Below are positions 31,041 through 35,678 of a stretch of 38,548 nt of DNA, piece after piece; the first letter of the stretch is position 1, and each line of letters begins with the position of its first letter. Made by a program: the position numbers and the translations under genes. The DNA comes from Holdemanella biformis DSM 3989. Lineage in GTDB: Bacteria; Bacillota_I; Bacilli_A; Erysipelotrichales; Erysipelotrichaceae. The notes below the pieces were generated by a model. It did no database searches. It saw only the letters and a list, made by a program, of their open reading frames with translations, and was not told the DNA's origin. The stretch is taken from NCBI RefSeq assembly GCF_000156655.1, contig NZ_DS996851.1:6016-44563 (forward strand), in the 5' to 3' direction.

Positions 31041-31065
31041 AATGACTGATTAGGGAGGGATATGC

Positions 31066-33402
31066 ATGACGTTAAAAGAACTAAAAATAGGACAGAGTGC
31101 ATTGATTAAGGCCGTTGGAGGAACGGGTGCATTAAGACAACACTTTCTAGATATGGGAGTCATACCTGGAGCTGAGGTTACAGTAGTAAAGTTTGCGCCT
31201 ATGGGCGATCCAGTGGAACTGCAAATTCATGGTTATGAATTGTCGCTTCGTTTAGATGAAGCTGAAAAAATATTGGTTGAATTAATTGATGAGAGAACAC
31301 GAAAGCATGAGAGTGCAGAAAATATAAATAACACCGTTCACCCTGGTTTAGGTGAAGATGGTAAATATCATGTAAAGGCAGATGAACATCCTTTGCCAGA
31401 AGGAACATGTTTGACATATGCCTTGGTAGGAAATCAAAACTGTGGAAAAACCACTTTGTTTAACCAACTCACGGGATCGAATCAGCATGTAGGAAATTTT
31501 CCGGGTGTAACCGTCGATCGAAAGGATGGTCCAATCAAAGGGTATCCAAATACAATGGTGACAGATTTACCGGGTATTTATTCGATGTCACCTTATACGA
31601 GTGAAGAAATTGTATCGCGTAATTTTGTGTTAAATGATAAGCCTAAAGCTATCATTAATATTGTAGATGCTACAAATATTGAGCGAAACCTGTATTTGAC
31701 TATGCAACTTTTAGAAATGAATATTCCGATGGTTGTTGCACTTAATATGATGGATGAAGTGGCCAACAATCAAGGTTCGATTGATATCAATGGTATGGAG
31801 GCTATGCTTGGTGTACCAGTTATACCTATTTCTGCAGCTAAAAACCAAGGTGTTGATGAATTGATTGAACATGCGATTCATATTGCGAAATATCAGGAAA
31901 GACCAGGTCGTTTAGATTTTTGTGGGGAAGATGATTTCGGTGGAGCCGTTCACCGTTGTATACATTCCATCTGTCATTTGATTGAAGATCATGCCAAAAA
32001 GACAGATATTCCTTTGCGTTTTGCGGCTAGTAAAATTATTGAAGGCGATAATTTGATTCTTGATCGTTTGGATTTAGATGATAACGAAAAAGAAATGATT
32101 GAACACATTGTGCTTCAAATGGAAAAAGAGCGTGGACTCGATCATAGTGCGGCCATTGCCGATATGCGTTTTTCTTTTATTGAAAAAGTTTGTGAACAAA
32201 CCGTTGTTAAGCCTAAAGAAAGTAAAGAGCGTGTTCGAAGTGAAAAAATTGACCGCGTTTTAACGGGTAAATATACTGCAATTCCTATGTTTATTGGAAT
32301 TATGTTACTTGTATTTTATCTAACATTTAATGTAGTTGGAGCATGGCTTCAAGGATTATTAGAACTAGGTATTGATTGGATCACACAAGTAGTGGATGCA
32401 TGGATGACAAGTGCTCACGTAAGCTATGCTGTACACAGTTTAGTGATTGATGGTATCTTTGCGGGTGTAGGTTCTGTCTTATCTTTCTTACCAATCATTG
32501 TGACACTATTCTTCTTTTTATCTATGATGGAAGATAGTGGATATATTGCACGTGTAGCCTTCTTTATGGATAAAATATTAAGAAAAATTGGATTATCAGG
32601 AAGAAGTATCGTTCCTTTATTGATTGGATTTGGATGTACAGTACCAGCCGTTATGTCAACACGTACTTTGCCTAGTGAAAGAGATCGTAAGATGACGATT
32701 TTGTTGACGCCATTTATGTCTTGTACTGCAAAATTACCTATTTATGCCTTTTTTGTGAATGCATTCTTTCCAAAGCAAGGTGGTCTAGTAATGACAGGAC
32801 TTTATGTTTTGGGCATTGTTACAGGTGTTTTAATCGCATTCTTATTTAAAAACACTTTATTTAAAGGGGAAGCTGTTCCATTTGTGATGGAACTTCCAAA
32901 CTATCGTTTGCCTGGATTAAAGAATGTGAGTCAATTGTTGTGGGAAAAGGCGAAGGATTTCTTACAAAAAGCCTTTACGGTTATTTTTGTGGCAACCGTA
33001 CTTGTGTGGTTCCTACAAAGCTTTAATTTACAATTCGATATGGTCAAAGATTCAAGCCAAAGTATTTTGGCAATGATTGCCGGATGGATTGCTCCTGTAT
33101 TTGCGCCATTAGGACTTCAAGATTGGCGTATTGTGACATCGTTGATTAGTGGGTTAATGGCTAAGGAAAGTGTTGTTTCTACACTACAAGTATTATTTGT
33201 AGGTGGTGTACATAGTGCATTAACTACACTATCAGCTGCATCGTTACTTGTATTCTGCTTGATTTATTCACCATGTGTTGCGGCTATCGCATCTATTAAA
33301 CGAGAACTCGGTGCAAGATGGGCAATTGGTGTAGTGGCATGGCAATGTGTACTTGCATGGATTTTAGCCTTTATTGTTCATGTGATTGGTTCTGTATTAT
33401 AA
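31066..33402 (+). CDS. feoB: FeoA-FeoB fusion, ferrous iron transporter
   Basis: A 778-residue protein. Residues 1-75 form a complete FeoA domain (SH3-like; LKIGQSALI...HFLDMGVIPG...LRLDEAEKI), usually a separate protein. After a short linker comes the FeoB G-domain: G1 GNQNCGKTT, G2 VGNFPGVTV, G3 DLPG, G4 NMMD. An insertion of GDI-like helices follows, then about eight to eleven membrane helices with gate motifs (IVPLLIGFGCTVPAVMSTRTL and LIYSPCVAAIASIKRE). It imports Fe2+. A strong SD (GGGAGGG) precedes ATG 31066. Its SD region is the best visible target of the candidate sRNA at 35423-35556. Confidence 0.95.
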   Translation: MTLKELKIGQSALIKAVGGTGALRQHFLDMGVIPGAEVTVVKFAPMGDPVELQIHGYELSLRLDEAEKILVELIDERTRKHESAENINNTVHPGLGEDGKYHVKADEHPLPEGTCLTYALVGNQNCGKTTLFNQLTGSNQHVGNFPGVTVDRKDGPIKGYPNTMVTDLPGIYSMSPYTSEEIVSRNFVLNDKPKAIINIVDATNIERNLYLTMQLLEMNIPMVVALNMMDEVANNQGSIDINGMEAMLGVPVIPISAAKNQGVDELIEHAIHIAKYQERPGRLDFCGEDDFGGAVHRCIHSICHLIEDHAKKTDIPLRFAASKIIEGDNLILDRLDLDDNEKEMIEHIVLQMEKERGLDHSAAIADMRFSFIEKVCEQTVVKPKESKERVRSEKIDRVLTGKYTAIPMFIGIMLLVFYLTFNVVGAWLQGLLELGIDWITQVVDAWMTSAHVSYAVHSLVIDGIFAGVGSVLSFLPIIVTLFFFLSMMEDSGYIARVAFFMDKILRKIGLSGRSIVPLLIGFGCTVPAVMSTRTLPSERDRKMTILLTPFMSCTAKLPIYAFFVNAFFPKQGGLVMTGLYVLGIVTGVLIAFLFKNTLFKGEAVPFVMELPNYRLPGLKNVSQLLWEKAKDFLQKAFTVIFVATVLVWFLQSFNLQFDMVKDSSQSILAMIAGWIAPVFAPLGLQDWRIVTSLISGLMAKESVVSTLQVLFVGGVHSALTTLSAASLLVFCLIYSPCVAAIASIKRELGARWAIGVVAWQCVLAWILAFIVHVIGSVL

Positions 33403-34297: not shown

Positions 34298-34846
34298 ATG
34301 AAGAAACTCATTCAATTATATGTTTCTTGGTTTAAGATGGGTCTATTTACTTTTGGTGGTGGATATGCCATGTTGCCAATGATTCAAAAGGAAGTGATTG
34401 AAAAGTATCATTGGGCTACAGAAGATGAAGTCATGGATTATTATGCGATTGGTCAATGTACACCCGGCGTTATTGCGGTCAATACATCGACTTTCATTGG
34501 ATACTATCAAGCTGGTATTCCAGGAGCGATTGCAGCTACTCTAGGTGTAGTTACTCCATCTATTATCATTATTAGTATAATTGCAGGTTTGATCACAAAC
34601 TTTTCAAGTTTAGCCATTGTACAACATGCACTAAATGGAATTCGTGTAGCTGTATGTATGTTGATGATCAATGCGGTATTGAAACTAGGTAAGGGTAATA
34701 TTAAAAATAAGATTGGTTTCTTGATTTTTGCGGTGGCTCTTATTTTTGCGATGTTTACTAAAGTTTCTACGGTGTTACTTGTGATTGGTGCTGGTATAGC
34801 TGGAGTTATCTTCTCTAGAATAGGATGGTTAAAGAAAAATGACTAA
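34298..34846 (+). CDS. chrA: chromate transporter family protein, short subunit (ChrA, first half)
   Basis: A 182-residue membrane protein with the CHR motifs FGGGYAMLPMI and IGQCTPGVIAVNTSTFIGY. Full ChrA proteins have two such halves; here they are separate genes in tandem, the short-chain CHR pair that acts as a heterodimer. About five to six helices. The family moves chromate and possibly other oxyanions; the physiological substrate in gut anaerobes is unknown. GGAGAG precedes ATG 34298. Confidence 0.88.
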   Translation: MKKLIQLYVSWFKMGLFTFGGGYAMLPMIQKEVIEKYHWATEDEVMDYYAIGQCTPGVIAVNTSTFIGYYQAGIPGAIAATLGVVTPSIIIISIIAGLITNFSSLAIVQHALNGIRVAVCMLMINAVLKLGKGNIKNKIGFLIFAVALIFAMFTKVSTVLLVIGAGIAGVIFSRIGWLKKND

Positions 34847-35387
34847 ATTGTTACTCATGTTTTTAGAATTTTTCAAGACTGGACTATTTGCGGTAGGAGG
34901 AGGTCTTGCGACCATTCCTTTCTTAAGAGAGATTGGGGTTCGTTATGGCTGGTATACTATGAGTGATCTATCTACAATGATTGCGGTTAGTGAATCTACA
35001 CCAGGCCCTATGGGTGTAAACATGGCTAGTTATGTAGGTTTTAGTCAATATGGTGTATTAGGTTCGATTATAGTAACACTTGGTTTGATTTTACCAAGTT
35101 TGATTATTATTTGTATCATTGCGAATTTCTTAGAGAAATTTAAAGAGGCAGAGCTTGTTCAACAAATCTTTGCCGGATTAAAACCTGCTGTAGTTGCCTT
35201 TATTGCCGTGGCTACCATTGATATTTTGGTGACAACTTTATTTGGTGATTATACTTTCTCCACATTTCATTGGAAGCAATTTATTTGTCTATTCATATTG
35301 TTGGCATTGAGTAAGTATAAACCTAAATTACATCCAATCTGGTTTATTGTAGCTAGTGCAGTGATAGGAATTGTATTTGCGTTTTAA
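34839..35387 (+). CDS. chrA: chromate transporter family protein, short subunit (second half)
   Basis: A 182-residue membrane protein, partner of the preceding gene, overlapping it by 8 bases. Motifs VGGGLATIPFLREI and VSESTPGPMGVNMASYVGF are the second-half versions of the CHR signatures. The two proteins have the same length but are clearly diverged, as usual for heterodimeric short-chain CHR pairs, which are thought to insert with opposite orientations. It ends in a terminator that starts within its stop codon. Confidence 0.88.
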   Translation: MTKLLLMFLEFFKTGLFAVGGGLATIPFLREIGVRYGWYTMSDLSTMIAVSESTPGPMGVNMASYVGFSQYGVLGSIIVTLGLILPSLIIICIIANFLEKFKEAELVQQIFAGLKPAVVAFIAVATIDILVTTLFGDYTFSTFHWKQFICLFILLALSKYKPKLHPIWFIVASAVIGIVFAF

Positions 35388-35418
35388 GTCATAGGGAAAC
35401 TTATGACTTTTTTCTTTT
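35386..35418 (+). terminator. terminator of the Cof-chrA operon
   Basis: AAGTCATA-GGGAAACT-TATGACTT followed by TTTTCTTTT. Confidence 0.8.
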
Positions 35419-35422
35419 AGGT

Positions 35423-35556
35423 AAAATAAAAAGCAATGTCCGGGCTTGACATTGCTTTAGGGAGAGGAAAATTATTAAGATAAAAGTGTATCTTGAGTTT
35501 ATAGGGTTGAATAATTTTCCAAAGGGTTAATCATAAGATAAGGCATTTCTTATGAT
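35423..35556 (-). ncRNA. candidate C-rich small regulatory RNA, about 134 nt
   Basis: A free-standing unit on the minus strand: promoter at 35563-35591, hairpin 1 (ATCATAAGA/TCTTATGAT at 35530-35556), hairpin 2 (GGAAAATTATT/AATAATTTTCC at 35467-35520 with an inner AAGATA/TATCTT stem), and a terminator hairpin AAAGCAATGTC/GACATTGCTTT (35430-35458) plus T run. No ORF. Unpaired stretches are C-rich (AACCC, CAACCC, TCTCCCTAA), as in Gram-positive sRNAs that block Shine-Dalgarno sequences. TCTCCCTAA is complementary to TTAGGGAG, present in the feoB SD region. I do not recognise a known family. Confidence 0.6.
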
Positions 35557-35562
35557 ACTTAA

Positions 35563-35591
35563 AATATATATTTTTTTGGTACTTAACGCAA
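35563..35591 (-). promoter_or_regulatory. promoter of the candidate sRNA
   Basis: On the minus strand TTGCGT (35586-35591), a 17-bp spacer and TATATT (35563-35568). A 7-bp inverted repeat ACACATA/TATGTGT (35595-35626) lies between this and the bile salt hydrolase gene. Confidence 0.6.
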
Positions 35592-35678
35592 TGAACACAT
35601 ATTTTGATTTGTACATTATTATGTGTGTAATCTTTTTGTAGTTTGTGTTAAGCTACTAAGTAGAAGGAGATGATTTTA

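Follow-up and report, generated by a model that had tools for sequence, protein, structure and literature searches.

Small regulatory RNAs that block Shine–Dalgarno (SD) sites with C-rich motifs of the UCCC type are well established, and they include RNAIII, RsaE, LhrC and FsrA (PMC4132741, PMC3861533). The RsaE molecule carries a duplicated UCCCC seed (PMC9217828), while LhrC of Listeria monocytogenes needs no Hfq for its action on lapB (PMC4132741). Literature searches turned up no studies of sRNAs in Holdemanella or elsewhere among the Erysipelotrichia.

Here, a locus of Holdemanella biformis is compared with these systems. Its best explanation, with a probability of roughly 0.6, is a genus-restricted, trans-acting small regulatory RNA on the minus strand, which would block SD sites through C-rich seeds. 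Transcription would start near 35560, diverge from the bile salt hydrolase gene (bsh), converge on a chromate-transporter-type gene pair and reach 35423, where the transcript would end at its own intrinsic terminator. Most likely, the RNA acts in trans and without Hfq. Its unpaired C-rich stretches, chiefly UCUCCCU, would pair with the G-rich SD regions of several mRNAs, and this pairing would block translation initiation, resulting in repression. Such a general mechanism would already be ordinary for Gram-positive bacteria.

Gene neighbourhood, fold and signals of the putative minus-strand RNA

The window, that is, the whole stretch of 38,548 nucleotides that was analysed, lies on contig C29 of an Erysipelotrichaceae genome of 2.5 Mb. 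The candidate sRNA locus lies between the chromate-transporter-type gene pair and bsh, with the following features.

34298-35387, plus strand: chrA-type gene pair (Pfam Chromate_transp)
35386-35418, plus strand: terminator of the chrA-type operon, convergent (35386-35409, then a T-run; terminator scan)
35423-35560, minus strand: putative sRNA of about 138 nt (start placed from the -10 element, end from the terminator)
35423-35458, minus strand: hairpin 3 and U-rich tail, intrinsic terminator (scan)
35459-35465, minus strand: unpaired linker UCUCCCU, proposed anti-SD seed (pairing probabilities; invariant in H. porci)
35466-35520, minus strand: hairpin 2, 17 pairs (predicted fold and pairing probabilities)
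35495-35509, minus strand: one-sided 15-nt bulge CAACCCUAUAAACUC within hairpin 2 (predicted fold)
35521-35529, minus strand: unpaired linker UAACCCUUU between hairpins 1 and 2 (pairing probabilities; invariant in H. porci)
35530-35556, minus strand: hairpin 1, 9 pairs and a 9-nt loop (predicted fold and pairing probabilities)
35563-35568, minus strand: putative -10 TATATT, spacer 17 nt (sequence; unchanged in H. porci)
35586-35591, minus strand: putative -35 TTGCGT (sequence; unchanged in H. porci)
35679, plus strand: likely true start ATG of bsh (NCBIfam choloylglycine hydrolase)

The first-pass annotation had proposed a C-rich sRNA at 35423-35591 on the minus strand, and both the coordinates and the strand proved correct. 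The chrA pair has a plus-strand terminator of its own, so that the chrA and sRNA units converge and are kept separate. Downstream of the sRNA terminator, the minus strand is antisense to chrA and holds no gene, in agreement with the earlier statement that the strand is free of genes; thus, the RNA is not the leader of a minus-strand gene. In effect, the candidate is a free-standing intergenic unit with its own terminator, as is characteristic of trans-acting C-rich sRNAs.

The minus strand of 35423-35591 has a predicted folding energy of -32.2 kcal/mol (z -5.0), and with the terminator excluded (35459-35560) the energy is -18.4 kcal/mol (z -5.3); in both cases, none of 200 shuffled sequences folded equally well. 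For the latter stretch, the plus strand reached a z of only -2.4. Counting against the sRNA reading, intergenic regions of the Holdemanella genome often yield stable folds. The terminator scan located 11 pairs followed by TTATTTT at 35458-35430 on the minus strand, in a scanned region where four terminators were found on both strands together against 0.5 expected by chance. Since hairpin 3 has its T-run on the minus strand only, it constitutes an intrinsic terminator of that strand. Moreover, UAACCCUUU, the bulge CAACCCUAUAAACUC and UCUCCCU all bear CCC and are unpaired with high predicted probability, consistent with the repeated single-stranded CCC motifs described earlier.

The promoter is the weakest part of the sequence evidence for a minus-strand unit. 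The combination TTGCGT-17-TATATT matches the consensus at 8 of 12 positions, which is under the cut-off of the promoter scanner, and the putative -35 agrees with TTGACA at only three of six, a poor match that speaks against an sRNA. The intergenic strands of this genome contain a loose pattern of TTGNNN-N16-18 and a -10-like hexamer at 0.056 per 100 nt, corresponding to a chance of a few per cent of finding a promoter-like site near the right place. Thus, of the promoter, hairpins and terminator that the first-pass annotation had seen lined up, the hairpins and the terminator held, and the promoter is weak.

Conservation, range and rival explanations

The only same-genus neighbour compared was H. 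porci, and the comparison therefore covers two species that are 96% alike. The sRNA differs between them at 2 of 134 sites, whereas in the flanking genes third codon positions differ at 70 of 500 (14%; chrA2 24/183, bsh 46/317; Fisher p 5e-6 vs the RNA). The single change in hairpin 1 turns an A-U into a G-U pair, which is kept, and the one change in hairpin 2 sits in the apical loop, leaving the fold intact. No change was found in the 14 nt of the -10 region, and the promoter hexamers are both unaltered while the 17-nt spacer carries 6 changes. These make up 6 of the 10 changes in the whole of 35423-35669 (hypergeometric p 7e-6, post hoc). Within this pair of species, the pattern argues for a genuine unit of transcription on the minus strand.

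Strong conservation by itself is not rare in this species pair, because 11 of 22 testable intergenic regions, the sRNA region included, contain a 134-nt window with at most 3 differences, and some of the 11 are tRNA regions. Windows of 134 nt that are 99-100% identical between the species were also seen at G000 C29 58956-59726 and 67428-67648, C39 36047-36302, and L133 14302-14518, against a difference of about 20% at third codon positions in the set compared; these windows possibly hold further RNAs or small genes. Nearly unchanged, too, is a 78-nt block upstream of bsh (35592-35669), which has a large predicted plus-strand hairpin, suggesting a leader or operator of bsh. The half-site CTTAACRCAA was considered as an operator common to bsh and the sRNA and was rejected, as its sRNA-side half is altered in H. 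porci.

A covariance search across the order, proposed earlier as a check, revealed no convincing homologue outside the genus. Among 316 Erysipelotrichales genomes, strong matches (E ~1e-33) came from the two Holdemanella genomes only, one copy in each and in corresponding positions in H. porci and H. biformis; in the 314 others none was convincing, with the reservation that a model built on two near-identical sequences could miss distant relatives. Weak matches in genomes G254 (E 0.017) and G173 (E 0.07) resemble terminator hairpins with no relation to the sRNA, e.g., AAAAAGCGACGTCC...GACGTCACTTTTT. Applied to the loci around same-family bsh/chrA relatives, the model gave a best outside match of E 0.027, lying within the bsh match of locus L182. 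Short blastn matches to 35470-35508 in G094 and G065 fall in ABC-transporter-like coding sequence and were attributed to chance. No match to the sRNA came from viral contigs, plasmids or phages. As far as could be searched, the RNA is confined to Holdemanella.

Might the hairpins instead form a structured 5' leader of bsh, on a transcript of the plus strand? That strand also folds, it has a TTGACA-N18-AATTAT site at 35446-35475, and the 82 nt adjacent to bsh are likewise conserved (2/82 changed in H. porci). Yet that TTGACA lies in a terminator stem, the sequence between the bsh-proximal block and the hairpins has diverged, and the plus strand exceeds its shuffles by less than the minus strand does. 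The minus-strand T-run of hairpin 3 and the separate terminator of chrA also speak against such a leader, which we regard as unlikely.

Convergent terminators are common between genes, and hairpin 3 might be simply a fail-safe that halts stray transcripts coming from around bsh on the minus strand, the remainder being an idle by-product. The weak promoter would suit this explanation; it is nevertheless quite improbable, as conservation in hairpins 1 and 2 and the CCC linkers is close to that of the terminator, and these two hairpins alone fold beyond chance. There is also only a slim likelihood that the minus-strand RNA is of another class, either an orphan structured RNA that binds a ligand or protein or the mRNA of a short peptide. 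The conserved 15-nt bulge of hairpin 2 could be a binding site, and inspection reveals a 15-codon frame, MPYLMINPLENYSTL, from 35545. Against these possibilities, Rfam gave no match and no gene lies downstream to be controlled, while the ATG of the frame lacks a preceding SD and the differences between the species are too few to judge coding. The minus-strand sRNA reading of the first-pass annotation is thus supported at the sequence level by the strand-specific terminator, the missing downstream gene and the conservation in H. porci; the sRNA is a real, conserved candidate, and it is probably transcribed.

Predicted pairing with Shine–Dalgarno regions and the feo gene

Target statistics were drawn from stretches totalling 925 kb, or 37% of the genome, with 841 start regions and genes called by a simple ORF script. 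The segment CCUCUCCCUAAAG, which contains UCUCCCU, reached -10 kcal/mol or lower with 116 of the 841 start regions vs 25 of 841 coding bodies. When the segment was shuffled at constant composition, the number of start-region matches ranged from 35 to 128, so base composition largely accounts for the pairing, and UAACCCUUU and CAACCCUAUAAACUC did not clearly exceed their shuffles. According to the pairing probabilities, the whole UCUCCCU linker is accessible. In other words, the predicted RNA does present an accessible C-rich stretch complementary to SD regions, with a marginal excess over shuffled segments, and SD blocking by this stretch is plausible as a model.

The first-pass annotation had connected the RNA to iron uptake through an 8-nt complement in the SD region of feoB. 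The gene and the site are as follows.

31066-33402, plus strand: feo, upstream (FeoA-FeoB fusion)
31050-31059, plus strand: TTAGGGAGGG, SD region of feoAB (complement of the linker at 35459-35465 and of flanking bases)

A single 778-aa protein carries both the FeoA and FeoB domains, fused. The complement is present and slightly longer than had been claimed, at 10 pairs including one G-U, and TTAGGGAGGG is identical in H. porci while the sequence upstream of it has diverged. The link is, however, not specific. The feo site ranks 4th of 841 by duplex energy and falls to 11th after opening costs (-9.0 kcal/mol), because the ten-pair duplex must open neighbouring stems. Ahead of it stand genes that by their sequences resemble those for a glycosyltransferase-like protein, ParC/GyrA, PgsA and MurA, and no common pathway or coherent target set appeared among the top start regions of the 841 ranked. 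Therefore, feo was rejected as a special target, and the iron-uptake link, while possible, is unsupported. An even more far-reaching proposal, in which a Holdemanella-specific, Hfq-independent sRNA would share a control region with bsh and couple bile or iron conditions in the gut to the translation of several mRNAs, is highly improbable.

Comparison with known C-rich sRNAs

The first-pass annotation had likened the RNA to RsaE/RoxS, and as a mode of action the likeness is plausible, with the reservation on composition given above; kinship was not borne out by Rfam. Both have unpaired C-rich motifs for which binding to SD regions is proposed, and both belong to Gram-positive hosts. However, RF01820, the RsaE/RoxS family, gave no match at the locus at E up to 10 and no match above the gathering score in either Holdemanella genome, the Bacillus subtilis control being positive. 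Moreover, the minus strand of 35423-35560 contains one UCCCU and two AACCCU, with no UCCCC, in contrast to the duplicated seed of RsaE.

As a Fur-controlled, iron-sparing RNA, FsrA represses enzymes that use iron, not uptake. Unlike this molecule, the Holdemanella RNA has an iron link that is unsupported; it resembles FsrA of Bacillus subtilis as a C-rich SD-binding sRNA of a low-GC Gram-positive bacterium (PMC4132741).

The likeness to LhrC1-5 concerns architecture as well as seed. In both, C-rich sites recur in a molecule made of stem-loops, a terminator and a single-stranded stretch, and the CUCCC core seed of LhrC is also found in the Holdemanella RNA. Hfq (PF17209), which an Hfq-dependent sRNA would need to have encoded in the genome, was detected in neither Holdemanella genome (G000, G001), with control genomes positive, and this is compatible with an LhrC-like, Hfq-independent action (PMC4132741). 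The differences are equally clear. LhrC exists in five copies vs one in Holdemanella, and its seeds are three CUCCC...UUUU copies in loop A, the linker and the terminator loop (PMC4132741), whereas the Holdemanella RNA has CUCCC only in the linker before the terminator, its other two stretches being AACCC in a linker and the bulge. It also matches no Rfam family at any useful score.

In Holdemanella, a gut genus that is common and in which no Hfq was detected, the candidate would give studies of RNA regulation a point of departure: it is conserved, its terminator is clear and its seed can be tested. By analogy with the described systems, the best explanation is that the Holdemanella RNA acts like LhrC or RsaE/RoxS and belongs to neither.
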